Part shown: positions 4,985 to 60,235 of the stretch, in pieces
Layout of the letters: each line of letters begins with the position of its first letter
How positions within the stretch are numbered: position 1 is the first letter of the stretch
NCBI RefSeq assembly: GCF_032854445.1
Contig: NC_088297.1
Location: forward strand, 8,419,375-8,483,374
Source: Liolophura sinensis
Taxonomy: Eukaryota; Mollusca; Polyplacophora; Chitonida; Chitonidae
DNA: 64,000 bases
Direction of reading: 5' to 3'
The notes under the pieces: generated by a model
Databases searched by the model: none
Told to the model about the DNA's origin: nothing
Seen by the model: the letters and a program-made list of their open reading frames with translations, nothing else
Program-made: the position numbers and the translations under genes

Positions 4985-5370
4985 GCTGGTGACATGAGCG
5001 TTGGTGACGTGTAGGTTTTGGTGGACGTGGAGCACTGGTGACCGTGGAGCGTTGGTGATGTGGAGCGTTGGAGATGTGGAGCGCTGGTGCAGGGAGCTCT
5101 GGTGACGTGGAGAGTTGGAGACGTGGAATGTTGGTGATGTGGAGCGTTGATGATGTGGGAGTACTGGTGACGTGGAGCATTGGTGATGTGGAGCACTGGT
5201 GCTGGTGACGTGGAGAGTTGGAGACGTGGAATGTGGTGATGTGGAGCGTTGATGATGTGGAGTACTGGTGACGTGGAGCATTGGTGATGTGGAGCACTGG
5301 TGCTGGTGACGTGGAGCGCTGGTGACGTGGAGCGTTGGAGACGTGGAGCACTGGTCACATGGAGCGTTCA
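4985..5370 (+). repeat. 15-16 bp minisatellite
   Basis: Imperfect repeats of GGTGACGTGGAGCGTTG-like units between AK2 and EIF2B4. A composite block of roughly 105 bp (GAGAGTTGGAGACGTGGAAT and following) occurs twice, near 5110 and 5214. Three overlapping minus-strand frames rich in S, T, P, H and R come from this repeat and are not genes. Confidence 0.9.
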
Positions 5371-14000: not shown

Positions 14001-17000
14001 CTTCTACTACTTTATTTTGCCTCACAATCTTACCATGCATACACAACGATGACGTCATCGTCAGCAATTTTTGATGATGCGAATTCAGAAATGGCAACAC
14101 CTGCCAGTTTTATCTTCTCCACGTAGTAGTTATCGATGTGATCCTTGATGATCTCCTTGGCCCTCATATCAGACATGTCCCCCGGGATGTTGGTGATATG
14201 CCACTTGATGAACTTAATCGCGTTCCCCATGCTCACCGATAATGGTCGACACTGGGTCAGAAAACTGAAAACAGATCAATGAATCAACTATATTTTTCGT
14301 AAAAAAAAAAAAAAACAACACACAAGCATAACAGTAAATATGAAACATAAATCATGGCTTTTATAATTTCTGTTTCTTGTGCTGTTTTGGTGGACATTTT
14401 GACAATAAATAAAGCAATAAAACAACAACTAACTGATTTTTTTCTTATAAGACAATTTCAAAGAAAACACTTGTACATAGGTAAATATCAGACAGGATTC
14501 CTGGCATTTGAAATTTGACAACAGTAAGCAACACAAGGATCCCTAATCTCAACTCTGCCACAGAACGTCCAGCACAAAATCAACATACCCTGTTCCTCAA
14601 CCTCTTCACATATTAAAGAGCGATTTTTAGTGCAATTTATGCCCATTTTCTATTTCATTTTGGAGACAAAATGAAATTGGATGTGTTGGCCAATTTCAGG
14701 GATTCACTTTCAGGGAAAAAAGTATAATTTTTTCAGTCTACAAGGAATAATGCCTTCAGAATATGCTTGAATAAGCAATACCCTGAAACATGCGGAAAGG
14801 CTAAAGAGTTACAGTACATATATGTAAATACAGAACAAAAAACAAATAGTCTGACATTGTCTGTATACATGTAGTTTGATTTAGTCTGTCCACTAATATG
14901 TTTTTAAAGCTTACCTGATGTATGGTTTAATTTTGGCTTCCAAATCTCGGGACAGTTCCTTATGGGGTGGGGTGGTGTAATCTCCAATCACCTGTGATAA
15001 CAACAACAACCACCTTTTCTTGTCACCCGTTTTGCATTTCAGATAACCCTACAGTTTACTTGTTTTCTTGTGTGATGCTTTAGGGCACTTTCAACATTGT
15101 ACATCAGTCATGATCTTCTGTCCCAACCAGTCAAAGACCATTTTCCGCAAGTTAGATGCCTTGTTTTCTGAGATTTAACAGCAGAATTTTACTTAGCACT
15201 GCCACTTAAAGTAAAATATGGTACCATAACTACATGTATCTGTAGTTTTATACTACAACATCTAAGCACCAGACCGGCCCGGATAGCACAGTTGGTAGAG
15301 CATCCGCTTCGGGAGCAGTAGATCCAGGATCAATCCTTGGTCAATCCTAGGACTTTAAAAGAGGAAGTTGTAACTTCCTTGCTTGGCATTCAGCATGAAG
15401 GGGATAGTGCAACGACTGGTTGACCCGTATCAGTATAATGGCTCGGGCGGGGCAGCTTATTTGCCTTCGGTTAGTCGTCTCTGTGACGCATGAGATGAAG
15501 GAGCGGTGGAAATCCTCCTTGCAAAAAGGAGGCACATTATGTACACCCTAAGGATGCCTTTGTCATCGTATGACTGAAAAATTGTTGAGTACTACGTTAA
15601 ACCCCAAGCACTCACTCACTCTAAGCACCAGCACTTCTTGGAATCAGTTACATGTGCAAAATCAAAATAAACAATGATTTTTACCTCTTTCAGTCTCCAT
15701 GTATTTCACAAATTTAACGATAATAAAGTTCCAAACCTTTTTCAAGGCAGCAAGTAGTCCTATACACCTGGCATTGGAGCCACAAATGATTCCCTCTGCA
15801 TACTGTAAACCAAGTTTGACAATAGCTGGGTGTATTCCAGAACTGGAAAACCTGCAGCAGAAATGTAGCACATGTAAACCAAGTTTGACAACAGCTGGGT
15901 GTATTCCAGAACTGGAAAACCTGCAGAGGAAATGTAGCACATGTAAACCCAGTCTGACAACCAGCTGGGTGTATTCCAGAACTGGAAAGGAACTGCAGAG
16001 GAAAGGTAGTCCATGTAAACCCAGTTTGACAATAGCTGGGTGTATTCCAGAACTGGAAAACCTGTAGAGGAAAAGTTATATATGTAAACCCAGTTTGACA
16101 ATAGCTGGGTGTATTCCAGAGCTGGAAAACCTGCAGAGGAAAAGTAGTACGTGTAAACCCAGTTTGACAATAGCTAGGTGTATTCCAGAACTGGATAACC
16201 TGCAGAGGAAAAGTTGTACATGTAAACCAAGTTTGACAATAGCTGGGTGTATTCCAGAACTGGACAACCTGCAGAGGAAAAGTTGTCCCTGTAAACCAAG
16301 TTTGACAATAGCTAGGTGTATTCCAGAACTGGATAACCTGCAGAGGAAAAGTTGTACATGTAAACCCAGTTTGACAATAGCTGGGTGTATTCCAGAAGTG
16401 GAAAACCTGCGGAGGAAAAGTAGTCCATGTAAAACCTTGTTTTCTAACTAGGCCAGATACCATCTAAGCCAATTATAGATTCACATTTCCGTGAATCAAG
16501 AATATTTCACTTATATGACAGCAGCCAGCATTATGGCGGGTGGAAACCGGGCACAGCCCGGGGGAAACTCACAACCATCCGCAGGTTGATGCCAGACCTT
16601 CCCACTTACGGCTGGAGAGGACGCCAGTATGAGCTGGACTTGAACTCACAGCGACCACATTGGTGAGAGACTCCTGGGTCATTACGCTGCTCTAGCGCGC
16701 TAACCAACTAAGCCACGGAGGCCTCCAGAAGACACAATGAATATTCAAGAGGAGGAGGATTTTTATTGGACACGCCTAAACCATGGCATGGTTTTCAACG
16801 TGCCTCAAATCGGATGATTTTGCATAAAACAACAATGTTCAAAATCGTATTTCTCTTAAGAAAACTTAAGAAAATCAAATTGCAGTCTGTATAGCTCTTT
16901 CATTTAAAGTATAGGTTGTATATATATCTGTGTTCTTTTCTTTTAATCTTGGTGTTTCAAGTAATCTGCTAGCGCCAGCGTATGAAAGTCAAAATGTTAT

Positions 17001-31800: not shown

Positions 31801-34800
31801 ACCACTTGTCCCGGCTGCCAGTAGAGAAGAAACCTGCTTGCGTCGGCGACCATTCGCAGGCTGATACCTTGAGGGAATGGGCGATGAATGTGTGGAACGG
31901 GAAGATTTCTACGTGACCCGTGAAGTCCCCCAGGGTCAGCAGGGTAGACTGGTTGTTCAGGTCAAAGATACACACATGACCTGCAAAAATATTAATTATT
32001 TATTTCATTGCTGCTTAATGCACTGCTCACAAATTTGCACTTATAATAACATAATGGCAGTCAGTTTTATGGGTGGGAGAACCTGGAGAGCCAGAGTAAT
32101 CCACCACCCTACTGACAAACTTTCCAACATGTGGATTCAGGCAGTCCCCGGTTCTTTGTTCTAAAATACAGGTAGAGTAACTAATTATGAACAGATGATA
32201 TTTTCCATGACTTTTTACTTTTTTTACTTCCCCCAGCAGGATATCACCCTACCTCTCAATCAAACTTCAAAACACCTTTCTAAGATCAATAAAAAAAAAA
32301 ATCGCCACTAGCAAAATGTGTAGCTTGGTGTAATCTTGGGACAAACTGTTAGGTCAATAACAGCAAGTCTGAAAGCCATACTGTTTCTAGTGCTGCCCAA
32401 CTAAACCCCCATGTGGAAGACACCTACAGATCTACATGGGACACCAATGCTAGTCAGTGATTACAGGTGGGTTCTACCTGACCCCTGTCATTACCTGTCC
32501 CGTAGCCAGCCAGTATAAGGCTCCTGTCTCCGGTTGTCTCCCAGTCCACACACATACAGCAGCCATGGGACGGGTCTGAAACACACAACACTACTACTGT
32601 ATTCTATATCCTTCCCTTGAGTCAGACAGAACTTGAGGATGTTCCAAAAATTTAACAGCTGAGCTTGACAATCAGTAACTGGATTACCGAGCTCTCTTCA
32701 ATAAGCTGTGCAAAGTGGTATTAAGCCATTACAATCAATTCATTAAGCTGAGCACTTCACGTCATTGTAATCTGCATATGCAGACACACGCTGGCCGTGA
32801 GTTTCATGGGTGGATTTAACCCAAGTATCTGGCATAAACCACTCACCTCTGGCAAGTTTAAACCTTTCCACATATACATAATATAGATACATGAACAGAT
32901 ATACAAAGGTGAACAAGAAGACAAACAACTTCCTACACCATCTGGAGATTGTGAAGTCATAGCAACTTACCATCCTCATTGAAGGTGGAGATGAGGGTAA
33001 ATATTGGAGGAGGTTTGACTACAATCCTCTCTGATGTCCCAGCTTCTTCTTGTAAAGCCCTGGGGTCGGGGACACTGTCCAAATCATAGAAACGATGTTC
33101 AATATGTTTGCTCTGACTGGCAAATACATGCATGTATACACTAATATTGATGCATTTAATACTTTTCTGGCACTGGACTGTAAGAGTTCTTAACATTGGC
33201 ACATCTTGATGAGTGTGTATGTGAAATTCTTGTAAGGTCCTCTGATGTTGACAGCCAGCCATTTTCAGCATTCTGATATTATTCCACTGATGCACCACTG
33301 GAAGGCTCAAGAGAATCATTAATAAGCTTCATATCGTGATTGTGTAGCTTGAACGGAACGTATCACTTAGCATCCCCTCACTGAAGCAGAGTAGCTGTTA
33401 CATGCATTTGAAAACTTGCACAAAACTGTTACAGCACGCACGGACAGGATTGGTTTTCTCCCTCACCTGAATATCCTCACAGTTCCATCCGTACAAGCCA
33501 AGGCCAGTAGTCCTAGCCGAGGTAACAGTTCCTTGCCCTGGAAAGGAGCACAAAATGTGATTACCTGATTGGGCTTAACTCCCTACTCCGGAATTTTTCA
33601 CTTATACAAAGGAATTGTTCTTTGGTAGGTAACAGAATGTCTTTTCCACATTTAATGCACAAACATTCAAGAGGATCTGAATGTCACATTGATGTATTGC
33701 AAATAATCTCCAATAAACTTCATTTATTTACTTATCTGAGAAAGGTATTTTATATTGTACTGAAGAATATTTCACTTACCTGCCAGACAAATAATGGTTA
33801 CTTACCTGATGGTCGACACTGCTGGGTGGTTTCCTGTCACAGCCAGCAGGACACCAGGACATATCATACACACAACCGTAATCATGAGCCAGCCCCAGTG
33901 TGAACTCCGGGTTAATGGTTGGGCTGAAAAAATGATTGAATTTTATTGAATGACACCTAGAGAGGTAGACTAATCCACTGATTACAATTAATATATTTCC
34001 TTCTTGAAGATATTGTGTTGGAAATACCAGTGAGGTGTTTGATTATTTATTTATTTAACTGGGGGTTTCATTGTACTTGTGATGTGCTTGAGACTGCATG
34101 CGCCTTGATTTGTTAATGTTCCCAAAATGAGGCACATTATAAAACACGAATTTCCATTTCCATGCAACTTAATTTTTAACGTTTAAAAACTAGAAGGCAC
34201 CCTACTACACAGAAAGGGATGGAGTACACTGCATTTCTGTTCTTCTATTGATGGTGAAGAATGGCTTAAAAAATTCCTAGATTCGGATTCCGACCTGAAT
34301 GGGCACCAAAATTTAATACATTCGTTCTTTAATAACACAAAATTTAACCTAAATGCCTGAATAATATTTTTTCCCTAACTGTTGCTGACAGGCAGTTCAA
34401 AACATAAATGCAAATAAAAACATAACCTCCTAGGTCAAAAAACAAACATGACAAGCCTACAAGCATATTAGAGGTGAAAACTATATTAAGCTTTGGTACA
34501 TTCTAATCTACAAACACAAACTTACACAAGGTACCAGTCTTACCTATCAATATTCAGGAAGCCACAGTCCCATATTTGGATGAGGCCCCGCCCACTGAAC
34601 ACTTCCATGCTGCCATGCTCTTCCTCCATCGTCCTGTGACAGCTGACAGTGGCATACTGCACATGAGGGCTGTCAGGTGGAACAGGGCACCAAGCTGTTG
34701 CCCACACGGGCCCGCCGGCAAAAAACCCTCCATGGGCAGTCCGCTCAAATTTCCTCAGATTGGCACGGCAGCCTTCGGAGGACTTGAGATTGATGAGTGA

Positions 34801-37800
34801 GAATCGCACCTGGACGCTCTCTTTGCTGACTGGGTAGTAGAACTCGCAGTCTTCCTGGGTTAATCTGTAACCATGGGGACAAGGACACATATAAATGCAA
34901 ATGCAATAGCAGGGAATGGCTGAGGATAAGTGATTAAGGTGCTTGATTTACAGTGGCTATCAGGCATAAATAAGATATTGACCCATGGGTAGAGAAGTCA
35001 CTTACAATGATTAAGATGGCTCTTAATAATCGGGCCTTGATGACAATAGGGCCGCACAGAATTACCTCCCTTGAGGTTACTCTCCAGTTTTAAAGGTGCA
35101 GAAATTGGCTAATGGAAAGTTTGTGTAGTTGAAACAGCATAAGATAGTTGAAGTTGAGTTAAATTTATAAACTTATTCGGAAAGGCCAGGACATATTTTT
35201 TAATCCATTCAGAGGTAATTTTAAAATCCTGGCTGTAAATACTAGACAGCTTTGACGAGCTCATAAGTTGAAAGACATGGATTTCATTTGAGATCTCTTT
35301 GCGACTTTTAAAGGTTGATATCAGATTGTTTGCATATTTTGTTGCCAGTTAGAAAATATTTGTCAGTGTCATCACATAACTACAAAATGCAGGCGCGGTC
35401 CCACTTCTCGTAGTTTCACGCCACCAAAACTAATTTCGCCTTACGTCACAGTCGCTGTCATGTAACAAGGGAGGTAATTCAGAGCAGGCCTATTAGCGAT
35501 CAGCGTCGCTCATGTGGGTGTTTGCTGAGCGTAACATTTGCTGAAGACCACATTTCTTTGACTGATATGGTGTACACATACGACACAACTGGGAAGTTTT
35601 ATCAGTAATTGACAAGGGCGACTGGTTTTAACCCAGGCACCGCAGTTCTTATCAGAAAACAACCAGCTTTGGCTAAGATACTCATGAACTTGCCCAAATG
35701 TAACATTACTTGAAAACTGCATACTGTGTACGTGAGCCAGAAATAATTTGCCTAACGTCAGTGGTTTATTCTAGGCACTTCATATTACTACTGCAAATAA
35801 TGTACTGTCTACCCTGTTACTACTGCAAATAATGTACTGTCTACCCTGTTACTACTGCAAATAATGTACTGTCTACCCTGTTAGTACTGCAAATAATGTA
35901 CTGTCTACCCTGTTACTACGGCCAATAATGTACTGTCTACCCTGTTACTACTGCCAATAATGTACTGTCTACCCTGTTACTACTGCAAATAATGTACTGT
36001 CTACCCTGTTACTACTGCCAATAATGTACTGTCTACCCTGTTACTACTGCAAATAATGTACTGTCTACCCTGTTACTACTGCCAATAATGTACTGTCTAC
36101 CCTGTTACTACAGCCAATAATGTACTGTCTACCCTGTTACTACTGCCAATAATGTACTGTCTACCCTGTTACTACAGCCAATAATGTACTGTCTACCCAA
36201 TAACAATACAATAATGTACTGTCTACCCTGTTACTACTGCCAATAATTACTGTCTACCCTGTTACTACTGCAAATAATGTACTGTCTACCCTGTTACTAC
36301 TGCCAATAATGTACTGTCTACCCTGTTACTACTGCAAATAATGTACTGTCTACCCTGTTACTACTGCCAATAATGTACTGTCTACCCTGTTACTACTGCA
36401 AATAATGTACTGTCTACCCTGTTACTACTGCAAATAATGTACTGTCTACCCTGTTACTACCGACAATAATGTACTGTCTACCCTGTTACTACTGCAAATA
36501 ATGTACTGTCTACCCTGTTACTACCGCCAATAATGTCCTGTCTACCCTGTTACTACTGCAAATAATGTACAGTCTACCCTGTTACTACTGCCAATAATGT
36601 ACTGTCTACCCTGTTACTACTGCAAATAATGTACTGTCTACCCTGTTACTACTGCAAATAATGTACTGTCTACCCTGTTACTACCGACAATAATGTACTG
36701 TCTACCCTGTTACTACCGACAATAATGTACTGTCTACCCTGTTACTACTGCAAATAATGTACTGTCTACCCTGTTACTACTGCCAATAATGTACTGTCTA
36801 CCCTGTTACTACTGCCAATAATGTACCGTCTACCCTGTTACTACTGCAAATAATGTACTGTCTACCCTGTTACTACCGCCAATAATGTACTGTCTACCCT
36901 GTTACTACTGCCAATAATGTATTGTCTACCCTGCTACTACCGCCAATAATTACTGTTTACCCTGTTACTACAGCCAATAATGTACTGTCTACCCAATAAC
37001 AATACAATAATGTACTGTCTACCCTGTTACTACCGCCAATAATGTACTGTCTACCCTGTTACTACCGCCAATAATGTACAGTCTACCCTGTTATTACCAC
37101 CAATAATGCACTGTCTACCCTGTTACTACCGCCAATAATGTACTGTCTACCCTGTTACTACCGCCAATGATGTCCTGTCTACCCTGTTACTACTGCCAAT
37201 AATGTACTGTCTACCCTGTTACTACCGCCAATAATGTACAGTCTACCCTGTTATTACCACCAGTAATGCACTGTCTACCCTGTTACTACCGACAATAATG
37301 TACTGTCTACCCTGTTACTACAGCCAATAATGTACTGTCTACCCTGTTACTACAGCCAATAATGTACTGTCTACCCAATAACAATACAATAATGTACTGT
37401 CTACCCTGTTACTACTGCCAATAATGTACTGTCTACCCTGTTACTACCGCCAATAATGTACAGTCTACCCTGTTATTACCACCAGTAATGCACTGTCTAC
37501 CCTGTTACTACCGCCAATAATGTACTGTTTACCCTGTTACTACCGCCAATAATGTCCTGTCTACCCTGTTACTACTGCCAATAATGTACTGTCTACCCTG
37601 TTACTACTGCCAATAATGTACTGTCTACCCTGTTACTACCGCCAATAATGTACTGTCTACCCTGTTATTTCCACCAGTAATGTACTGTCTACCCTGTTAT
37701 TACCACCAGTAATGTACAGTCTACCCTGTTATTACCACCAATAATGTACTGTCTACCCTGTTATTACCACCAGTAATGTACAGTCTACCCTGTTACTACC

Positions 37801-40800: not shown

Positions 40801-43800
40801 TACGGCGCTATTAGAGACCTTGTGAAGCAGAATCACATCTACCAAGGATAACCCTATGCCTCAGTGGGTCTGTAGAGTGTTTCATACCACTCTAGGAGAG
40901 TTGACACTGATCCCACAGTCAACACTGGAAAACAACGTTGAGGAAATATGTAACTTTTACACCAAGAAAAAAATAGAAAATTTACAAGAAAGTTTTGCAA
41001 AAAATTAGGAGCATTTTATAGAATAGAAAGCAGACAAATGCCTAAACACTACATGTATACTGTATAATGGCCCCCACCACCCTTCACACCACTGATATCA
41101 CCGTTTTCACAGCATGACAAAAATTGTGACCAGAGAATCAACAACATGAATAAAGAATGTCATGGTCGTTGGGTAACAGAGAATGGAGAATACACAGACA
41201 AGAATGTAAATGATAGGGTGTGATAGACAATTGGGAACAGACAATAACATGAGGTGATAGACAAGATGAGAATATTGAATGTAATGGATATGGGATGAAG
41301 ACAATGGAGAATAAATCTCAGAGAATTGAATTTACATGAGGTGATAGATAATGAAGAATAAGCAACAAAGAATACAATGGATGTAGGGGGATATATGCAA
41401 TGGAAAATAAAATGCAAACAATATTTTAATTGACTTGGTGTGATGGCTAGACAACAGAGAATACATATATATCTAGACAAGAATATAATTGGCAAAATCT
41501 AATAGACAAAGGGGAATAATTTATTTATTTATTTGATTGGCGTTTTACTTTTACCACAGCGGTCAGCGTTATCGTGGGAGGAAACCGTGCTGAGTCTGAG
41601 GGGAACCCACAACCATCTGCAGGTTGCTGGAAGACCTTCCCACGCACGACAAGAGAGGAAGCCAGTATGAGCTGGACTTGAACTCACAGTCTACTACCGG
41701 TATTTGTACTCTCACTGATTCAAGGCCAGAGTTATTGTGGAAGCCTGCCCAAATGCATAAATACGTGATCAGCCAAACGCTGTTCCTGACAGCTTCCTAC
41801 ACACACCTTGTCTACATGTATCTAAACTACTGGTGCGCTAGCACAACGTAATGACCCAGGAGCCTCTCACCAATGTGGTCACTGAGAGTTCAATTCCACT
41901 TCATGCTGGCTTCCCTCTCCGGCCATAAGTGCAAAAGTCTGCCAGCAACCTATGGATGGTCGTTGGTCTCTGCAGAGCTCTGCCAGGTTTCCTCTTACCA
42001 TAATGCTGGCTTCCGTCGTATAAGTGAAATATTTCTGAGTACGGTGTAAAACAGTATTCAAATAAATAAATAAATAAATAAATAAATAAACTACTGGAGG
42101 CAAATGTCTCATACTAAATGTCACACATCATGTCACGAACAACATAATTTATCAACACTTACTTTTTTGGTGTCATCATCTGGTAAAGAGTCGTCTTGTA
42201 CATCTTTCAGATGTTTTATGGCTCTGAAACAGAATGGGATTCACATGTACATATTATTACACTGGTTTTTCTTGCAAACACTTTTTAACTGGTATGATGG
42301 GGACAGACTCATGAACACAGAGATACGTCTACCTCACACATTCTGATTAAAGGTTCTGGCCAAAACATCAAAACAGTATTGAAAACGTGAAAACGTGTAT
42401 ATGAGCTCGTGAAAAACTTTCTCCAAATGTTCACCTGTAGACCTCAGTATGTAATATGTAAGAAAGCATGTTTACAATTCTTCAACCATTTTGCATGTTT
42501 GTAAGGTGTTTATTCAAGCACACTGTTAAGACATTATATATGTTTAAGACATTAGCATAGACTAAAAAATTATAGCTTTTGTCAAGTCCTGAAGTGGACT
42601 GAACCCAACCAATGTAGTTACGCCCCCAAGATAAAATTTAAGATGTGCATAAATAGGACTGAAAGTGACTCTTTTATATGCAGAAGGGGGCCTCCGTGGC
42701 TCAGTTGGTTAGCGCGCTAGCGCAGCGAAACAGCCCAGTAGTCTCTCACCAATGCGGTCGCTGTGAGTTCAAGTCCAGCTCATGCTGGTTTCCTCTCCGT
42801 ACATGGGAAAGTCTTCCAGCAACCTGCAGATGGTCGTGGGTTTCTCCTGGGCTCTGTCCGGTTTCCACCCATCATAATGCTGGCCACCGTCGTATAAGTG
42901 AAATAATCTTGAGTACAGCGTAAAACACCAATCAAATAAATAAATAAATAAATTAAAATATATGCAGATAGGTTGAGGAATTAGGGTGTCTCCATTGAAT
43001 TTCACATTATGCCATGTAAAGGGTCCTCCAAGCATTGCCAATGGCTTACTTCAGTGGAGTGATACATGGACATGTTGTAGGATTTCCGTAATTCACCGTC
43101 TGAAGCAAGAATCAACAACAAAAACAACAAGAATGAGTAACACTGCTTCTGTGTGTGATGACTTCTAAACGTACACGTACTGTACTACGTCTATGTCGCA
43201 AAGCATGCTTCAAGCCTGTATGTATTTGAATTTGAATTTTTGTATTTCACCTAAAATTTGGTAAGTAAAAATGCACTTTCAAAACCACATGAAAGCCTTA
43301 AAATGATGGCTCATGATGCTACCACTTCAGTTCTTCCGATAAGAAATCAATCAAACCTTACAAAAGAAAACGCAGAGAGACTCTATAAGGTGGTTGACTC
43401 AATCAGAATCAAACAAAATGTGGGACTTGAAAAATGCTAAAGATAAAGGTAAAATACCATAGCTAACCTTTTAGCGGCATTTCTCTGTTTCCTGAATGGG
43501 GATGTCAGGTCTCCATTCTTGTCCACCATGGAAGCCTCTGACACCTGTTGGGCCACCTTTTTCTCCTTGTTCCGATGGTCTCTCATGTGAACTTTCTTCC
43601 ACTTTGCCTTCAGAGTTTGGTTACAGATCTCACAAGTGTACGTTTCATGCTGATAAATCAATAAACAAAAGTAAACATTTGTGTGTAAGGGTTTTGCTAA
43701 GGCCAATGACAGTATGCCATAGAAAGTTGTTTATTCTTGCTACAATTTAACACAATATCACCCTTAAATGACCCCAAATTTATGAGTTATGTAAATGCCA

Positions 43801-46800
43801 TAAAATATTAGTTTTGGTGCTGACACACACGTTTTTCCATCAGGATATCATAATACCATCCAAACCAGCCTTCAAGCAGTTCTCTAGAGTCATTAGAATA
43901 ATACGGTACATTCAGCAAGTAAATCATGAACAAAATTTTAGTTCATTTAATATTTCATCACTTATTATTTATTTTATTTCTTTATTTTATTGGTGTTTTA
44001 CGCTGCACTCAAGAATATTTCACTTATAAGATGGCGGCCAGCATTATGGAGGAAGAAAACTGAGCAGAGCTCGGTGGAAACCCATGACAATCCGCAGGTT
44101 GCCGGCAGGCCTTCCCACGTACGGCCAGATAGGAAGCCAGCATGAGCTGGACTTGATCTGACAGCAAACGCACTGGTGAGAGGCTACAGGATCATTATGA
44201 AGTGCTAGCGCCCTAACCTACTGTGCCACGGGGGCCCTCAATATTTCGTTACTCTTTATGTCATACTCGATTTTTTACCAGGGTATTTTCCAGGGTGGAG
44301 GTCTGACTGGAAAACAATGCTCATACTTACATGGTATATGTGACAAACAGACTTGTACACAGCCTTTCACTCCCAGAACAAACTCAAGGTACATGGCACA
44401 TTCATGTAAGACAAATGATGCGCAAGGAACTTTGTGTAAGGCCACGTGAAACCATTATACAACCAATTATTGCCACCAAAGTAATCACAAGACTGGAATT
44501 TTAGCCTGGGCCTTAAATCACATAAAAGCCTGAAGTTTCTATAAAAGCAGTCTTTACCACTCAGCCAGCCAGGGCTTTAGCATAATCTAGCAAAAGACAG
44601 TTGTACACTGTGTCAGTCACTCACCTCTCTGCCACACCACTCTATATGGTCCATGTGAGCGTGGAGGAACCTCTGTGTGTCGTCACTCACCTCTCTGCCA
44701 CACCACTCTATATGGTCCATGTAAGTGTGGAGGAACCTCTGTGTGTTGTCACTCACCTCTCTGCCACACCACTCTATATGGTCAATGTGAGCGTGGAAGA
44801 ACCTCTGTGTGTTGTCACTCACCTCTCTGCCACACCACTCTATATGGTCCATGTAAGCGTGGAGGAGCCTCTGTGTGTTGTCACTCACCTCTCTGCCACA
44901 CCACTCTATATGGTCAATGTAAGTGTGGAGGAACCTCTGTGTGTTGTCACTCACCTCTCTGCCACACCACACTATATGGTCCATGTAAGCGTGGAGGAAC
45001 CTCTGTGTGTTGTCACTCACCTCTCTGCCACACCACTCTATATGGTCCATGTAAGCCTGGAGGAACCTCTGTGTGTTGTCACTCACCTCTCTGCCACACC
45101 ACTCTATATGTTCAATGTAAGCGTGGAGGAACCTCTATATGTTGTCACTCACCTCTCTGCCACACCACTCTATATGGTCCATGTAAGCGTGGAGGAGCCT
45201 CTGTGTGTTGTCACTCACCTCTCTGCCACACCACTCTATATGTTCAATGTAAGCGTGGAGGAACCTCTGTATGTTGTCACTCACCTCTCTGCCACACCAC
45301 TCTATATGGTCCATGTAAGCGTGGAGGAGCCTCTGTGTGTTGTCACTCACCTCTCTGCCACACCACTCTATATGGTCCATGTAAGCGTGGAGGGACCTCT
45401 GTGTGTTGTCACTCACCTCTCTGCCACACCACTCTATATGGTCAATGTGAGTGTGGAGGGACCTCTGTGTGTTGTCACTCACCTCTCTGCCACACCACTC
45501 TATATGGTCCATGTGAGCGTGGAGGAACCCCTGTGTGTTGTCACTCACCTCTCTGCCACATCACTCTATATGGTCCATGTAAGCGTGGAGGAGCCTCTGT
45601 GTGTTGTCACTCACCTCTCTGCCACACCACTCTATATGGTCAATGTAAGTGTGGAGGAACCTCTGTGTGTTGTCACTCACCTCTCTGCCACACCACTCTA
45701 TATGGTCCATGTAAGTGTGGAGGAGCCTCTGTGTGTTGTCACTCACCTCTCTGCCACACCACTCTATATGGTCCATGTAAGTGTGGAGGGACCTCTGTGT
45801 GTTGTCACTCACCTCTCTGCCACACCACTCTATATGGTCAATGTAAGTGTGGAGGGACCTCTGTGTGTTGTCACTCACCTCTCTGCCACACCACTCTATA
45901 TGGTCCATGTAAGTGTGGAGGAACCTCTGTGTGTTGTCACTCACCTCTCTGCCACACCACTTTATATGTACCATGTAACCGTGGAGGAGCCTCTGTGTGT
46001 TGTCACTCACCTCTCTGCCACACCACTCTATATGGTCCATGTAACTGTGGAGGAACCTCTGTGTGTTGTCACTCACCTCTCTGCCACACCACTCTATATG
46101 GTCAATGTAAGTGTGGAGGAACCTCTGTGTGTTGTCACTCACCTCTCTGCCACACCACTCTATATCGTCAATGTAAGCGTGGAGGGACCTCTGTGTGTTG
46201 TCACTCACCTCTCTGCCACACCACTCTATATGGTCAATGTAAGTGTGGAGGAACCTCTGTGTGTTGTCACTCACCTCTCTGCCACGCCACTCTATATGGT
46301 CCATGTGAGCGTGGAAGAACCTCTGTGTGTTGTCACTCACCTCTCTGCCACACCACTCTATATGGTCCATGTAAGTGTGGAGGAACCTCTGTGTGTTGTC
46401 ACTCACCTCTCTGCCACACCACTCTATATGGTCCATGTAAGTGTGGAGGAGCCTCTGTGTGTTGTCACTCACCTCTCTGCCACACCACTCTATATGGTCC
46501 ATGTAAGCGTGGAGGAACCTCTGTGTGTTGTCACTCACCTCTCTGCCACACCACTCTATATGGTCCATGTAAGTGTGGAAGAACCTCTGTGTGTTGTCAC
46601 TCACCTCTCTGCCACACCACTCTATATGGTCCATGTAAGCGTGGAGGAACCTCTGTGTGTTGTCACTCACCTCTCTGCCACACCACTCTATATGGTCCAT
46701 GTAAGCGTGGAGGAACCTTTGTGTGTTGTCACTCACCTCTCTGCCACACCACTCTATATGGTCCATGTCAGCGTGGAGGAGCCTCTGTGTGTTGTCACTC

Positions 46801-49800
46801 ACCTCTCTGCCACACCACTCTATATGGTCCATGTAAGTGTGGAGGAGCCTCTGTGTGTTGTCACTCACCTCTCTGCCACACCACTCTATATGGTCCGTGT
46901 AAGCGTGGAGGAACCTCTGTGTGTTGTCACTCACCTCTCTGCCACACCACTCTATATCGTCAATGTAAGCGTGGAGGGACCTCTGTGTGTTGTCACTCAC
47001 CTCTCTGCCACACCACTCTATATGGTCAATATAAGTGTGGAGGAACCTCTGTGTGTTGTCACTCACCTCTCTGCCACACCACTCTATATGGTCCATGTGA
47101 GCGTGGAAGAACCTCTGTGTGTTGTCACTCACCTCTCTGCCACGCCACATATATGGTCCATGTAAGTGTGGAGGAACCTCTGTGTGTTGTCACTCACCTC
47201 TCTGCCACACCACTCTATATGGTCCATGTAAGTGTGGAGGAGCCTCTGTGTGTTGTCACTCACCTCTCTGCCACACCACTCTATATGGTCCATGTAAGCG
47301 TGGAGGAACCTCTGTGTGTTGTCACTCACCTCTCTGCCACACCACTCTATATGGTCCATGTAAGTGTGGAAGAACCTCTGTGTGTTGTCACTCACCTCTC
47401 TGCCACACCACTCTATATGGTCCATGTAAGCGTGGAGGAACCTCTGTGTGTTGTCACTCACCTCTCTGCCACACCACTCTATATGGTCCATTTAAGCGTG
47501 GAGGGACCTCTGTGTGTTGTCACTCACCTCTCTGCCACACCACTCTATATGGTCAATGTGAGCGTGGAGGAACCTCTGTGTGTTGTCACTCACCTCTCTG
47601 CCACACCACTCTATATGGTCAATGTAAGTGTGGAGGAACCTCTGTGTGTTGTCACTCACCTCTCTGCCACACCACTCTATATGGTCCATGTAAGTGTGGA
47701 GGAGCCTCTGTGTGTTGTCACTCACCTCTCTGCCACACCACTCTATATGGTCCATGTAAGTGTGGAGGGACCTCTGTGTGTTGTCACTCACCTCTCTGCC
47801 ACACCACTCTATATGGTCAATGTAAGTGTGGAGGGACCTCTGTGTGTTATCACTCACCTCTCTGCCACACCACTCTATATGGTCCATGTAAGTGTGGAGG
47901 AACCTGTGTGTGTTGTCACTCACCTCTCTGCCACACCACTCTATATCGTCAATGTAAGCGTGGAGGGACCTCTGTGTGTTGTCACTCACCTCTCTGCCAC
48001 ACCACTCTATATGGTCAATGTAAGTGTGGAGGAACCTCTGTGTGTTGTCACTCACCTCTCTGCCACACCACTCTATATGGTCCATGTGAGCGTGGAGGAA
48101 CCTCTGTGTGTTGTCACTCACCTCTCTGCCACACCACTCTATATGGTCCATGTAAGTGTGGAGGAACCTCTGTGTGTTGTCACTCACCTCTCTGCCACAC
48201 CACTCTATATGGTCCATGTGAGCGTGGAGGAACCTCTGTGTGTTGTCACTCACCTCTCTGCCACACCACTCTATATGGTCCATGTGAGCGTGGAGGGACC
48301 TCTGTGTGTTGTCACTCACCTCTCTGCCACACCACTCTATATGGTCCATGTGAACATGGACGAACCTCTGTGTGTTGTCACTCACCTCTCTGCCACACCA
48401 CTCTATATGGTCAATGTAAGTGTGGAGGAACCTCTGTGTGTTGTCACTCACCTCTCTGCCACACCACTCTATATGGTCCATGTAAGCGTGGAGGAACCTC
48501 TGTGTGTTGTCACTCACCTCTCTGCCACACCACTCTATATGTACCATGTAACCGTGGAGGAGCCTCTGTGTGTTCTCACTCACCTCTCTGCCACACCACT
48601 CTATATGGTCAATGTAAGTGTGGAGGAACCTCTGTGTGTTGTCACTCACCTCTCTGCCACACCACTCTATATGGTCCATGTGAGCGTGGAGGAACCTCTG
48701 TGTGTTGTCACTCACCTCTCTGCCACATCACTCTATATGGTCCATGTAAGTGTGGAGGAGCCTCTGTGTGTTGTCACTCACCTCTCTGCCACACCACTCT
48801 ATATGGTCCATGTAAGTGTGGAGGGACCTCTGTGTGTTGTCACTCACCTCTCTGCCACACCACTCTATATGGTCCATGTAAGTGTGGAGGAACCTCTGTG
48901 TGTTGTCACTCACCTCTCTGCCACACCACTCTATATGGTCCATGTAAGCGTGGAGGAACCTCTGTGTGTTGTCACTCACCTCTCTGCCACACCACTCTAT
49001 ATGGTCCATGTAACCGTGGAGGAACCTCTGTGTGTTGTCACTCACCTCTCTGCCACACCACTCTATATGTACCATGTAACCGTGGAGGAACCTCTGTGTG
49101 TTGTCACTCACCTCTCTGCCACACCACTTTATATGGTCCATGTGAGCGTGGAGGAACCTCTGTGTGTTGTCACTCACCTCTCTGCCACACCACTCTATAT
49201 GGTCCATGTAAGCGTGGAGGAACCTCTGTGTGTTGTCACTCACCTCTCTGCCACACCACTTTATATGGTCAATGTAAGTGTGGAGGAGCCTGTGTGTGTT
49301 GTCACTCACCTCTCTGCCACACCACTCTATATGGTCCATGTAAGCGTGGAGGAACCTCTGTGTGTTGTCACTCACCTCTCTGCCACACCACTCTATATGG
49401 TCCGTGTAAGCGTGGAAGAACCTCTGTGTGTTGTCACTCACCTCTCTGCCACACCACTCTATATGGTCAATGTAAGTGTGGAGGAACCTCTGTGTTGTCG
49501 CTCACCTCTCTGCCACACCACTCTATATGGTCCGTGTAAGCATGGAGGAACCTCTGTGTGTTGTCACTCACCTCTCTGCCACACCACTCTATATGGTCCA
49601 TGTAAGCGTGGAGGAACCTCTGTGTGTTGTCACTCACCTCTCTGCCACACCACTCTATATGGTCCATGTGAGCGTGGAGGAACCTCTGTGTGTTGTCACT
49701 CACCTCTCTGCCACACCACTCTATATGGTCCATGTAAGCGTGGAGGAATCTCTGTGTGTTGTCACAGTTTGGACATTTCAGTTTCTTCATGGCTTTCAGT

Positions 49801-52702
49801 ATCGCTCCTAATGCCCGTCTGTCTGTCCGTCCTTCTGGACAATCCTCTGTCCACTGAAACATCACAGAGGTACATACCACATTCGTATATGAACTAACCT
49901 TTCGCACATGATTAAGTTAATCACTTTTTTCAGATTCTGAGAGTCCTGCTTATCTTGGGTGTATGTTTGTAAGCTACATGTAGCACAATGTCCTATGGAA
50001 TATTTATTTATTTACTTATTTTATTGGTGTTTTACGCCGTACTCAAGAATATTTCACTTATACGACAGCGGACAGCATTCTGGTGGGATGAAACCGGGCA
50101 GAGCCCAGTGGAAACCCACGACCATCCGCAGGTTTTTGTCCAATGGAATAAGTATGTGTTTCAGCAGTAAAGGTAACATTTCATGACCTTAACTTGCCTC
50201 TAAAAGTGCACTTATTAGACATATATTGAGGGCAAATGAAAACACTGTTATATTTGACAATTACATGTATCTCTAAGGAGTGAAATATTACTAAGAACAG
50301 AGAAGTATATCCTTACAAGTTTGGGTGGTCGAAACGACTTAGATTCCAGAGGAAATGACAGAACCTTTCACGACACTGACAAAACCACTAATCTTGCTTC
50401 TGAGACGGAGAGAACTGGCTACTAGATTCAGACACACGAAGAACTCCAACCAGTACTGCATTCTTTTTGGTCACTATCTTAATTATTTATTTTTTAAGTG
50501 GGGGGGGGGGGGCATTTTTCATTTTAAAAAAATTGGTACCTAAACATACTTGTATCGAATTGTTATTTTTGAAAATTACACCATTTAACCCACTTTCCCC
50601 AGGTACCCACTGGGCAAAAACTAATCAACACATAGACTATATGATTACATGTAATGAAACATGAAACCAAATCCAAACATAATCCTCAATTTTCAATTGA
50701 GTCACACCCAAGACCTCAAATCCAAAATGAAAATAAACTCAAGAGCACCAATGCTTGGTGGGCCGCCATCATATGCTTGCTCATGTCTGACTGATTGTCA
50801 AAGAGCAAACCACACCTGACACACTGAGTTGGGAACTGAATCTGAAAATAGAAAGGACAGAAATCATGAAGTGAACAACGCCTGGAAAAAAACAACGCAA
50901 CAGAGAAACAGATTGCATTCCTTCCTCTTTATGTGTTGAGGGTATTAATACTGTGCTGAACAAGGTTTCACTTTAACTTTGTGGTTTGTGGTTTGTGGTT
51001 CAGAGTAAACCACAATTAATGCCTAGAGTAAACAGACATAATCCAGGTACCTATGAAACCATCGCCATTGTCACGATTCATGTTAATTTCATGCTTTATA
51101 TGTAATAAGAGAAAGCATATGGTAACACATGATAGCATGATACTTTCCACCTCATTACCTGTAACTTGCAAGACACAGACGAAATTTGAAATTAGATGGG
51201 GGGGGGGGGGGTCTCATTTGCAGTGTATCTCCTATTTTCCATACTTCTTCAGTTGTTAATTTTGTTAGAATCGAAACTGAAATACACTTTCACCCCTAAA
51301 CCTATGGTTACTACGATGTTTTCTCCCATAATGCAACACCAATTTTACTTTGTGTTTTACAGGCAAGCTGACACCACAAAATTCAAAAGTGGAATAAAAG
51401 TTAAACTGATAATGTTTTTTTTGCTTTGTCCTACCTTGATAATTTCATGATTTTTCTTGTTTTTCAAGGTGTTCCAGTCAAATAAATATATGTCTTCAGC
51501 AAAGAAGAGATGCTGTAACAGGACACATTTCCCACAAAATAGGCAAATCTTTAAATTTTATTACACCTTCTTCTGACATTGGAAAAAGGTTTATTCTACC
51601 TGTTAATCAACAATTTTCAATCCTCAATTTTCAATTTTCAATCGAGTCAAACTCAAGAACTTAAAAAAGGAAGTTCTAACTTCCTCACTTGGCATTCAGC
51701 ATGAACAGGATAGTGCAATGACTGTTTGACCCGTATCATTATAATGGCTCGGGCAGGGCGGCTTACTTGCCATCCGTAAGTCATCTCAGTGAAGCAGCAC
51801 TAGAAAGAGCGATGGAAATCTGCCCGCAACAAGGAGGCACATTACATGCACTCTAAGGATTCCTTCATCATCATATGACTGAAAAAATTGTTAAGTATGA
51901 CGTTAAACCCCAAGCATTCACTCCTTCATTAAATCAACAATTTAAACTGGTTCGGCCTCACCATGCCAGAAAAGTCCTCAGTAAAGGTCTTTAATACATG
52001 TACATGTCACATGTATAATCGGACAGCTGAACACATCTACATGTAGTGAAATGTGTGGCTCACCTGTGGAGTTGGAGGAGGTTTCTTTGCTCGGCCTTGC
52101 CTTTTCTTCTTTGCTGGAGTTGTTTCTTCTTCCCAGTCATCTTCACTGTTCCCAAACTTCCGCATCAGCTCATCCATCTCCATATCAACCACATGATCTC
52201 CGTAGATCGGATCGACAGAGGATCGTTTGGGCTGGCCTTGCTTCCGAGACTTTCTCCCTCTTTGTTTGCCCTCCGGTTTGGTTGTCTCCCCTGCCAGGTC
52301 CTCAGACTCATCCTGACAGGTTCCTCGCCTCTGCGGATTTCTCGACTTCCTTCGATTCCTAGTGCTTCCTCCTTCATCTGAGGAAACAGCCAAACTTTTA
52401 TCCAAAAGTTCATTTTTCTTTGTCTCTGTGCTTGTTCGTCCAGAACCGTTGCTTTCAGAAGCTTCTCCAGCGCCGCTATCCTCACCGGTTGAATTCCCAT
52501 CACCCACTTCCTGTGGAACAGACGACTTTGATCTTTTGTGTTTAACTGTTACAGGACTGGCATTGTCTACGTCTTGCACTGCTTCATTCCCGTCGTCTTT
52601 CCCTATCTCTTCCAGCACAGTTTCATCTTTATCAACATGACTAGCACTTTTTCGACCTTTCCCTCTCTTGGGAATCTGTTTTGGGGTATTAGATTCTTTC
52701 AT
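25870..52702 (-). CDS. GTF3C2: TFIIIC subunit 2 (TFIIIC110-like, WD-repeat) with N-terminal zinc fingers, 17 coding exons
   Basis: Nuclear subunit of TFIIIC, which binds internal promoters of tRNA-type genes and recruits TFIIIB and Pol III. Exons in transcript order: 52064-52702, 50749-50841, 49704-49853, 43468-43649, 42163-42223, 40617-40710, 38510-38675, 34544-34864, 33806-33923, 33467-33537, 32971-33116, 32495-32575, 31677-31980, 30815-30908, 30195-30320, 28568-28816, 25870-26046. All junctions are GT-AG, phases agree, total 3072 nt (1023 aa). Residues 1-213 are basic and acidic low complexity with AT-hook-like RGRKSRK and KKKRQGRAKK. Residues 214-330 hold three zinc fingers. The rest is a WD propeller matching vertebrate TFIIIC110: FFAGGPVWATAWCPVP, LLPRLGLLALACTDG, FIAHSLKVSACEWSP, GSRDKWFAIWDIR and, near the end, GGQAGIVRFSNVSG. 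Several introns carry large satellite arrays. I do not recall zinc fingers in the human protein. Confidence 0.93.
26976..27243 (-). mobile_element. SINE family A, nearly complete
   Basis: Begins with TCTATTTATTTATT and a T-run, then TACTCAAGAATATTTCACTG, CCAGCATTGTGGTGGGAGG and a divergent head ending GCTAACCCCC. In the GTF3C2 last intron. Confidence 0.83.
28224..28397 (+). mobile_element. SINE family A containing a family B tail fragment
   Basis: Family A blocks AACTTCCCACCAATGC and CCATAAGTGGGACGGTCTGC are separated by CCCCAAGCACTCACTCACTC, the end of family B. The copy then continues to GTGCAAAACACCGATC and AAATAAATAAA. Confidence 0.75.
29648..29872 (+). mobile_element. MITE-like element G, copy 2
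   Basis: Shares TTTGCAATGTGTT, GTGAAGCCCTGAAAATGGCC, AATGTAGTTTTG and AAAAGGTTGA with the copy at 24336. Its left inverted repeat is degraded (GTAATTCTGCAA). Confidence 0.7.
30413..30560 (+). repeat. Dispersed repeat E, copy 2
   Basis: Shares CCACATCAGACAAAATACT, CATATGTGTC and AGGTTATCTCCCTTTG with 4012-4140. In a GTF3C2 intron; no coding content. Confidence 0.55.
30957..31325 (-). repeat. 63-bp minisatellite, about 6 copies
   Basis: Tandem units in the GTF3C2 intron between exons 31677-31980 and 30815-30908, ending about 50 bp from the downstream acceptor. On the gene strand the unit contains CTTCTCATAAGTTAC, TCTGTTATG and ATCAG. This closely resembles the real donor region of exon 31677 (CTTCTC|GTAAGTTAC, then TCTCTTATG and GTCAG), with the splice-site G changed to A in the units. 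Each unit also contains a related half-repeat. Confidence 0.9.
31998..32160 (-). mobile_element. SINE-like fragment related to family A
   Basis: TTATTTATTTCATTGCTGC, CACTTATAATAACATAATGG, TCAGTTTTATGGGTGGGAGA and CCTGGAGAGCC. The block order follows family A, but the body differs and resembles 8885-8990. Probably a sister family. Confidence 0.5.
33724..33779 (-). mobile_element. SINE family A tail fragment
   Basis: TTTATTTACTTATCTGAG, then TATATTGTACTGAAGAATAT and TTCACTTA only. Adjacent to the donor of the GTF3C2 exon 33806-33923. Confidence 0.55.
35050..35481. mobile_element. MITE candidate with 15-bp terminal inverted repeats
   Basis: GAATTACCTCCCTTG near 35050 is matched by the exact complement CAAGGGAGGTAATTC ending near 35481, followed inward by GTTAC on the two sides. 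About 430 bp, noncoding, in the GTF3C2 intron. No clear target duplication was found, so two chance copies of this common motif are possible. Confidence 0.5.
35785..38155 (+). repeat. 32-bp satellite, about 74 copies
   Basis: Units of TAATGTACTGTCTACCCTGT plus TACTACTGCAAA in the GTF3C2 intron 34865-38509. Variants shift from TACTACTGC to TATTACCACCAG toward the right end, so unit types are clustered. An aberrant unit with ACCCAATAACAATACAATAA appears at 36196, 36992 and 37374, indicating block duplications. It ends in four copies of CTACCATTAT. I see no similarity to a neighbouring exon. Confidence 0.95.
39391..39556 (+). repeat. 27-bp minisatellite, about 6 copies
   Basis: Repeats of TGACCCAAACAAAAAAGCTT and ACTCAAC in the GTF3C2 intron between exons 40617 and 38675. 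Units alternate between 27 and 28 bp by one A. Confidence 0.9.
40150..40390 (-). mobile_element. SINE family A, nearly complete
   Basis: TTATTTATTTATTTGATTGG tail, CCAGCATTATGGTGGAAGG body, CTCACAGCGACCACAATGG and GGGTCATTACGCTG head. Confidence 0.88.
41518..41692 (-). mobile_element. SINE family A, truncated
   Basis: TTTATTTATTTGATTGGCG tail joined after a deletion to TCAGCGTTATCGTGGGAGG and the body up to GGACTTGAACTCACAG. Confidence 0.82.
41838..42092 (+). mobile_element. SINE family A with long AAAT tail
   Basis: Begins GCGCTAGCACAACGTAATGA, keeps CCATAATGCTGGC and ends in eight or so AAAT units. In the GTF3C2 intron. Confidence 0.88.
42475..42985 (+). mobile_element. MITE-like element G, copy 3, split by a SINE
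   Basis: Left part starts CAATTCTTCAACCATTTT and contains CAAGTCCTGAAGTGG and CAACCAATGTAGTTACG; right part resumes at ATAGGTTGAGGAATTAGGG. A family A SINE lies between, flanked by TATATGCAGA on both sides, which is its target duplication. Confidence 0.78.
42689..42955 (+). mobile_element. SINE family A, full length, best-preserved copy
   Basis: tRNA-like head CCTCCGTGGCTCAGTTGG (A box) and GAGTTCAAGTCC (B-box-like), body CCATCATAATGCTGGCC, tail CAGCGTAAAACACCAATC plus AAATAAATAAATAAA. Target duplication TATATGCAGA on both sides inside MITE G. It can serve as the family reference. Confidence 0.93.
43468..43649 (-). other. GTF3C2: GTF3C2 exon 4: third zinc finger (C2H2) and basic linker
   Basis: The exon opens after TTTATCAG with HETYTCEICNQTLK and carries C-x2-C-x11-H-x3-H (CEIC, VHMRDH), then a lysine-rich stretch. 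It ends with NAAK at AAAAG|GTTAGC and joins the exon at 42163-42223 in phase 2 to read NAAKRAIKHLKDVQ. It joins exon 3 in phase 0. Confidence 0.82.
43966..44236 (-). mobile_element. SINE family A, full length
   Basis: TTTATTTTATTGGTGTTTTA tail, GGCGGCCAGCATTATGGAGG body, head complement CTACTGTGCCACGGGGGCC. It sits about 380 bp from the 66-bp array. Confidence 0.9.
44612..49767 (-). repeat. 66-bp satellite, about 78 copies, exon-plus-donor derived
   Basis: A 5.2-kb head-to-tail array in the GTF3C2 intron after exon 3. On the gene strand each unit encodes DNTQRFLHAYMDHIEWC followed by GREVS, so it contains 51 bp of zinc-finger exon, the GRE codons and the intact GAG|GTGAGT splice donor. Unit length is 22 codons, so frames stay open for hundreds of codons on both strands. 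A 1-bp deletion near 47146 and a 2-bp deletion near 49493 shift the register. The rare unit variant with TATATCGT recurs at 46161, 46953 and 47942; the first spacing is exactly 12 units (792 bp), showing block duplication. Confidence 0.95.
49704..49853 (-). other. GTF3C2: GTF3C2 exon 3: second zinc finger (C2HC), source of the 66-bp array
   Basis: A 150-bp phase-0 exon encoding 50 residues, with a C-x2-C-x12-H-x3-C finger (CPNC, then MDHIEWC) followed by GRE. The acceptor is TTTCAG above 49853. The donor is GAG|GTGAGT at 49698-49703, nearly perfect against the U1 consensus. From the residue after the second cysteine to the donor, the exon is repeated about 78 times downstream. The exon boundary given uses the donor closest to the unique sequence. 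Confidence 0.82.
50003..50135 (-). mobile_element. SINE family A, 3' half
   Basis: TTATTGGTGTTTTACGCCGT, CGACAGCGGACAGCATTCTG and GAAACCCACGACCATCCGC; truncated there. Confidence 0.83.
50749..50841 (-). other. GTF3C2: GTF3C2 exon 2: first zinc finger (C2H2)
   Basis: This 93-bp phase-0 exon encodes CVRCGLLFDNQSDMSKHMMAAH, a C-x2-C-x12-H-x4-H finger with the usual hydrophobic positions (F and M). The acceptor is TTTTCAG above 50841 and the donor is TTG|GTGCTC below 50749, a weak donor chosen because it keeps phase 0 with both neighbours. Confidence 0.82.
51641..51930 (+). mobile_element. SINE family B, head-truncated
   Basis: Starts at GAGTCAAACTCAAGAAC, contains GAAGTTCTAACTTCCTC and GCAACAAGGAGGCACATTA, ends CCCCAAGCATTCACTCC. 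Confidence 0.87.
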
Positions 52703-59722: not shown

Positions 59723-60235
59723 CACAAGGAGGATAGTTGAACTAGAAAGGGGTTGATCAAATGAAGTCAGCAGTCTGGGAGATCAGCACCATGAGGAATT
59801 CATGACACAAGGAGGATAGCTAAAGGAAAGGGTTGATCAAATGAGGACGGCGGCCTGGGAGATCAACACCATGATAACCATGAGGAATTCATGATGGACA
59901 CAGGAGGATGGCTGAAGGAAGTGGTGGATCAAATGAGGACGGCGACCTGGGAGATCAACACCTTGATAACCATGAGGAATTTATGATGGACACAGGAGGA
60001 TGGCTGAAGGAAGTGGTTGATTGAATGAGGACGGCAGTCTGGGAGATCAACGACTTAATAAACATGAGGAAATCACACCAGCTGACAGAAGGATTTTGAT
60101 CCATGACAGCAATCTGTGAGATCAACACCTTGATGACCATGAAGAATTCATGATGGACACCAGGGGGATATGGACTGAAAGGAGGGGTTGATCAAAGCAG
60201 TGTAGGATGCGATCAACACTGTAAGCAGTAAAATT
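59723..60235 (+). repeat. About six decaying copies of the MED30 terminal exon
   Basis: Immediately after the MED30 stop, an 80-95 bp unit recurs about six times with increasing divergence. Each full copy has GATCAAATGAGGACGGC, then TGGGAGATCAACACC, ATGATAACCATGAGGAA and TTCATGA, matching the end of the last exon (IDQMRTVIWEINTMITM and its stop) plus the following AGGAGGAT tract. Copies begin near 59750, 59831, 59923, 60016, 60106 and 60187. Most keep an exon-like reading frame ending in a stop in the same place. They probably lie in the 3' UTR. Confidence 0.85.

Follow-up and report, generated by a model that had tools for sequence, protein, structure and literature searches.

A 66-bp minisatellite that repeats an exon end with its 5' splice site in a GTF3C2-like gene of Liolophura sinensis, and arrays of similar design at other splice junctions

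The stretch of DNA analysed here (the window) comprises 64,000 nucleotides (nt) of contig NC_088297.1 of Liolophura sinensis (assembly GCF_032854445.1) and contains a GTF3C2-like gene whose exon 3 is followed by a long minisatellite that repeats the end of this exon together with its 5' splice site (donor). The host gene and the array are read on the minus strand, and the array is located at C3:8.46 Mb in the 609-Mb assembly. The zinc-finger exons and the open frame matching human GTF3C2 probably belong to one transcript, as their order and strand suggest. The finger encoded by exon 2 is of the C2H2 type (zf-C2H2 in Pfam at E 2.4e-5 and 25.0 bits, slightly below the cut-off of 25.2), and intron 2 is about 0.9 kb long, its 5' end near 50749 being a weakly supported exon-2 donor. 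Exon 3 starts behind the acceptor ...GATGTTTCAG/TGG (TTTCAG; slashes mark splice junctions), reads ...CPNCDNTQRFLHAYMDHIEWCGRE and contains CPNC...H...C; when joined to exon 4, it is open in one of the three frames. Queries with the initial 389 bases of the region, with each of the two flanks, and with the protein of the exon revealed no second copy or allele of the locus in the assembly, although only the best candidates were scored and absence is thereby not proven. The coordinates of the features are collected in Table 1.

Table 1. Features of the GTF3C2-like locus and of an array at an acceptor in the same window (window positions)
Feature	Position	Strand	Description	Basis
Open frame with exon matching human GTF3C2 (TFIIIC110)	34540..34947	-		8cli_C, E 1.1e-10
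Exon 3 of the GTF3C2-like gene	49704..49853	-	150 nt with donor 1; C-x2-C-x12-H-x3-C finger; last 57 nt are copy 1	acceptor, open frame and spacing read from sequence
78-copy array	44616..49765	-	66-bp unit (57 nt of exon end + GTGAGTGAC)	TRF and copy list
Intron start of copy 1	49695..49703	-	GAG/GTGAGTGAC, most likely the working 5' splice site	use inferred
Copies 2-4	49506..49694	-	sole further donors that keep the frame open	frame test
Copy 5	49442..49496	-	2-nt deletion and internal stop; donors 5-78 would give a truncated product	copy list, frame test
Intron 3	43650..49703	-	6054 nt from donor 1 (array 5088, remainder 966)	
Exon 4	43468..43649	-	HETYTCEICNQTLKAKWKKVHMRDH..., finger-like	
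eIF2B-delta (EIF2B4) mirror-image array	15804..16433	-	9.1 copies of 69 bp with 3' splice site tttcctctgcag/ and exon start	

The array, which is the one large array of the region, was reported by Tandem Repeats Finder (TRF) with a period of 66, 78.1 copies, 95% matches, and a score of 9243. Each 66-bp unit consists of 57 exonic nt from the end of exon 3 and the 9 intronic nt GTGAGTGAC, and the minisatellite thus directly abuts the exon and takes in its donor. Individual copies were cut at the donors on the minus strand using GAGGTGAG[TC]G as the anchor. A total of 78 anchors were obtained, spaced 66 apart throughout except for 64 once and 65 once, and this regularity indicates that no copy was missed. 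The junction GAG/GTGAG was intact in 78 of 78 copies, the complete GTGAGT was present in 77 (copy 4 reads GTGAGC), and AGGT was found in every unit, such that the downstream units also carry intact donors. The 76 full-length copies comprised 43 distinct sequences.

The reading frame was tested for donors 1-6. Donors 1-4 were open through exon 4 and are the only ones that keep the frame, adding 0, 22, 44, and 66 residues, respectively, while donors 5 and 6 were stopped. Frame shifts are located in copy 5 (-2) and copy 40 (-1) and in-frame stops in copies 16, 35, 64, and 71; the stop inside copy 5 is inherited by every later donor. A preliminary description of this DNA, made from the letters alone, had reported about 78 tandem copies of the exon end and its 5' splice site at 66-bp spacing, with the repeat beginning after the first cysteine pair (CPNC), and both statements were confirmed by the copy list and by the reading of exon 3. 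Its further proposal that distal donors would insert 22-residue repeats in frame, up to a register shift or stop, holds for donors 1-4 and fails for donors 5-78, owing to the 2-nt deletion and the stop in copy 5. Among the full-length copies, 32 variant types were distinguished, namely 23 nonsynonymous, 6 synonymous, and 3 stops, where 21.6, 8.7, and 1.7 were expected from the same spectrum. The substitution classes are close to expectation, and the copies therefore appear to drift like non-coding DNA. With two frameshifts, four stops, and these substitution classes, the array is neither open nor under the coding constraint of a coding tandem repeat.

Genome-wide, three AGGTRAGT motifs at minisatellite spacing were counted and compared with the same motif reversed, which was the sole control motif for these counts. 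There were 982+1187 matches against 685+535 reversed for gaps of 28-57, 1352+1695 against 627+629 for gaps of 59-88, and 1166+1270 against 745+578 for gaps of 40-69; the first two ranges omit the usual gap of the GTF3C2-like array (58), and the third includes it. Triple-motif donor matches were thus about twice as frequent as those of the control, and single motifs were nearly equal (50,973 against 47,894 reversed). Since matches and not arrays were counted, large arrays weigh more. From 100 listed matches for each of two gap ranges (28-57 and 59-88), 30 donor loci (21 and 9 new) were grouped, all located below position 5.5 Mb on contig C1; many of these arrays begin within the final part of an open frame extending to the first donor.

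For the protein test, open stretches 28 or more residues long, within at most 240 nt on the sense side of the upstream edge (180 nt before it and at most 60 nt inside), were compared with PDB. A match just upstream on the sense strand was obtained for 8 of the 30 donor arrays: espin/ankyrin (L003), RAPTOR (L004 and L028), a Mot1/BTAF1-type helicase with the PDB title 'Helicase-like protein', which we take to be BTAF1 (L011 and L012), iron hydrogenase (L021), annexin (L022), and SUFU (L027). The first search covered the best 60 of 127 matches; the segments of loci left without a match were searched again, L012 and L028 were confirmed separately, and no PDB match was found in this second search for the segments of the remaining 22 loci. 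The antisense strand of the same upstream stretch gave a PDB match in 1 of 30 arrays (L025), as did the downstream flank (L028, a further RAPTOR stretch), and the comparison of 8/30 with 2/60 control stretches yielded a Fisher P of 0.002. Pfam, applied without a control to 10 chosen segments of 10 loci, added antistasin (L024) and prominin (L030), raising the arrays with some protein match to 10 of 30. For L003, L004, L011, L012, L021, L027, L028, and L030, eight of the ten, the distance from the start of the repeat to the first exact donor downstream is 12-54 nt. Because the same protein was matched twice by arrays with different units about 13 and 47 kb apart, the pairs L011/L012 (BTAF1-type) and L004/L028 (RAPTOR) probably represent two arrays in one gene each.

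The reversed motif provided 14 control arrays grouped from 100 listed matches, among which L031 and L033 were without a flank and L041 was without a downstream flank, leaving 12 usable arrays and 46 flank-strands. No PDB match was obtained in the segments searched (nine segments were left out). L040 holds 28 donor motifs, and this control is therefore not clean. Extrapolated very roughly from one chromosome end, and provided that the number of matches per locus is similar elsewhere, the genome would contain about 800 donor arrays, 250-300 of them at exon ends. Two of the 30 loci have units of a different character. In L020 (G000:C1:5263700-5269900), a 38-bp unit with a donor motif and the pyrimidine-rich CCTTCCTTCCAG recurs about 60 times, and both a donor and an acceptor may be on offer in these units. 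L024 (G000:C1:1307700-1312900) is built of 81-bp units. One of its frames reads as antistasin domains and has 7 stops in 571 codons, another is free of stops, and the array may be a partly coding repeat.

The same design was also found in mirror image, with the repeat taking in an acceptor and the start of the exon that follows. In the window, the exon at such an array (Table 1) matches eIF2B-delta with an E of 7e-10 alone and of 1e-17 when the query also contains a second exon. Genome-wide, the acceptor motif TTTTCAGG gave 288 matches against 115 reversed, with no single-motif count beside them. From 100 listed matches, 21 acceptor loci were grouped and 20 were examined, C2:3187905 being left out. 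At the preset cut-off, the downstream segments gave a PDB match in 0 of 19 acceptor loci (L063 ran to its end). The array of L057 ends at a cyclin H exon start (E 0.0005), a match obtained after a 25-residue reading, recognised by eye and lying under the 26-residue cut-off, had been added; L061 resembles the cyclin H locus and has no database support. The motif TTTTCAGGT catches donors too, as in L054, whose WDR61-like stretch (E 0.03) was the only upstream match.

Conservation of the donor was examined across the class by comparing changes in the donor with those in its 14-nt flanks, the copies being located by their flanks and three perfect copies being removed to correct for ascertainment. 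The sample consisted of 13 exon arrays, namely the GTF3C2-like array and 12 sister arrays (10 with a PDB or Pfam match and 2, L008 and L023, classed by open frame alone), and of 16 other arrays; L017 and L026 were dropped because of their low copy number, and just 3 exact donors were available in L022. Fewer donor than flank changes were observed in 7 of the 13 exon arrays and in 8 of the 16 others (P 0.78). Donor changes are thus not generally rarer than flank changes, and there is no class-wide sign of selection on the donor. The GTF3C2-like array is among the 7, with a ratio of 0.24 that leans towards kept donors and a flank mismatch of 0.8%, and it appears to differ from the class mainly by youth or fresh homogenisation.

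The structure and copy number of the array, its absent coding constraint, and the recurrence of its design at further donors and acceptors, all read at the DNA level, are best accounted for by a neutral minisatellite that was seeded across a splice junction and is tolerated since the exon-proximal site serves, a reading to which a probability of roughly 0.75 is assigned. Each edge of the array bears the sequence GTGAC, on the exonic side within AACTGTGAC and just inside the intron within GAGTGAC, and a slip between these short direct repeats probably produced the tandem duplication over the exon 3/intron 3 junction that would have seeded the array. The array would then have extended into the intron through exchanges involving one or several units each. 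Between copies 36-43 and copies 48-55, each pair differs by at most one change and five of the eight pairs are identical, and this recurrence indicates that a multi-copy block was duplicated. A duplication across the junction would leave the outermost copy at the exon, and selection of the donor nearest across the exon would preserve the normal product for an array of any length. Expansion away from the exon would be nearly neutral in the animal, because each copy has the exon end and the donor and the copy adjacent to the exon would still splice normally. Donor 1 is expected to be used mainly, donors 2-4 as minor in-frame alternatives, and later donors rarely, with truncated and probably degraded products. 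According to PMC9225289, the exon-proximal donor is preferred among donors of like strength when the exon lies between long introns, and the reverse is preferred between short introns; set against this rule, the flanking introns measure 6 kb (intron 3) and about 0.9 kb (intron 2). The preliminary description had suggested that the array is tolerated because any donor works. Of its ideas, the persistence of a working donor has the best support, but 'any donor' is probably too strong, given the preference for exon-proximal donors in the same source.

Several points weigh against a neutral, tolerated array. The evidence consists of DNA only, and donor use is predicted. Under the classical rule of intron proximity, which PMC9225289 sets out, the last donor would be preferred. 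In the 76 full-length copies, the longest invariant run, 16 nt (positions 47-62), lies on the donor (P 0.004 uniform and 0.011 base-weighted); it could be a weak hint of donor constraint, and invariance of the donor 9-mer alone has a P of 0.06-0.15. The control arrays are few, and the sense-upstream comparison of 8/30 with 0/12 (P 0.08) is not significant alone.

It is also possible, although rather unlikely, that long arrays are mildly harmful and not neutral, as in expanded alleles of human ABCA7, in which expression is reduced and the following exon is skipped more often. According to PMC5954066, skipping of ABCA7 exon 19 rises with the length of the variable number tandem repeat (VNTR), and the 5.1 kb of the present array fall inside the published allele range of 298 to 10678 bp; for exon 4, nothing here points to skipping. 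An improbable account is that the array is under selection for length variants, in which donors 1-4 add 0, 22, 44, or 66 residues between two fingers. A unit divisible by three and the open frames of these donors through exon 4 would suit it, but 74 of the 78 donors are unable to contribute, the substitutions are without coding constraint, the added units are without the first cysteine pair, and the commonest donor spacing is a multiple of three in only 3 of the 12 sister exon arrays (33, 48, and 81). The protein length variation proposed in the preliminary description therefore survives as a possibility for donors 1-4 and is otherwise disfavoured by the absent protein-level constraint and by the sister spacings.

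Very improbable is a landing strip for U1 small nuclear ribonucleoprotein (snRNP), kept to suppress premature polyadenylation or to tune the output of the gene. Telescripting is a described phenomenon, the array presents 78 strong donor-like sites in 5 kb with 16 invariant nt around the donor, and six polyadenylation hexamers lie past it, 5712-5968 nt into intron 3. Set against this, donors are kept no better than flanks across the class, acceptor arrays without the exon's donor also exist, and an intron of less than 1 kb without the array would leave little for U1 to protect. Most of the length of the intron comes from the array itself (5088 of 6054 nt), and the earlier proposal of a U1 sink that protects a long intron is accordingly not supported. 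An assembly artefact or a wrong array length is less credible still, for although the length rests on a single assembly, the copies differ in sequence, the flanks run on into single-copy sequence within one large contig (their other matches cover only part of each flank and represent a dispersed repeat), and other arrays with different units are present in the same assembly.

The window contains 9 arrays of at least 380 bp, which together occupy 15.1 of its 64 kb; one is located on a donor (GTF3C2-like) and one other on an acceptor (eIF2B-delta). A 32-bp unit is present in 74 copies at 35785-38156, also within the region of the GTF3C2-like gene, with no exon evident at either edge. Further large arrays are located at 10523-12151 (39 bp x 42), 12151-13964 (64 bp x 29), and 61031-63348 (57 bp x 41), the first two standing head to tail at 12151, and no exon overlap was seen at those of their edges that were read. 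An eIF2B-delta stretch on the minus strand ends some tens of nt before 13964. These statements on edges cover seven of the nine arrays, those at 4987-5368 and 59661-60075 being outside them, and for some of the seven they cover one edge only.

The recurring design offers many natural tests of the choice among near-identical splice sites, and since the copies carry distinguishing variants (43 distinct sequences in 76 copies), the donor used in a given transcript can be identified, or at least confined to a few copies, from a complementary DNA (cDNA) read. It would show how introns can grow from the edges of exons without harm to the protein, and gene prediction must reckon, in genomes of this kind, with exon ends that may recur dozens of times. 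A more far-reaching possibility, which must be regarded as tentative and more doubtful than not, is that hundreds of junction-seeded minisatellites at donors and acceptors behave like that of ABCA7, vary in copy number between individuals, and shift splice-site choice or exon skipping, such that they would contribute to splicing variation in the lineage systematically and on a major scale.

To our knowledge, donor minisatellites are known from two human genes, IFI6 and ABCA7. The older case, the minisatellite of human IFI6 (6-16), was reportedly described by Turri, Cuin and Porter in 1995. No genome-wide survey of splice-junction minisatellites, and no report of any in molluscs, was found in the open-licence literature, which does not show their absence from print. 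In ABCA7, which is reported as an Alzheimer's risk locus, the VNTR of intron 18 has a 25-bp unit, the canonical exon 18 donor opens its first unit, and transcripts that keep a single unit form an additional isoform whose share does not depend on length (PMC5954066). The GTF3C2-like array resembles it in lying directly behind an exon, including the donor of that exon, offering a donor in its units, and reaching kilobase lengths. It differs in that the ABCA7 array starts at GT whereas the present one takes in 57 exonic nt, and in that retention of a 25-bp unit shifts the frame whereas that of a 66-bp unit would preserve it. In IFI6, two downstream units are described as donors (PMC4526556), and the likeness lies in a donor minisatellite whose downstream units act as donors, here as candidates. 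The present array differs from IFI6 in having 78 copies and in being known from DNA alone, a difference that also separates it from ABCA7, for which RNA data are available. In the polyubiquitin gene UBC, AGGT serves as donor or acceptor in dual-specific splice sites (PMC10809524); AGGT-type splice sites are likewise arrayed in tandem in one gene, but those of UBC delimit whole ubiquitin monomers, whereas the unit here is an exon fragment located in an intron. An intronic minisatellite near alternative exons has also been described in C. elegans (PMC4039745). The GTF3C2-like array is most likely a splice-junction minisatellite of the kind known from the two human genes, and it is the recurrence of this kind in one genome, at donors and acceptors, that is the surprising part.
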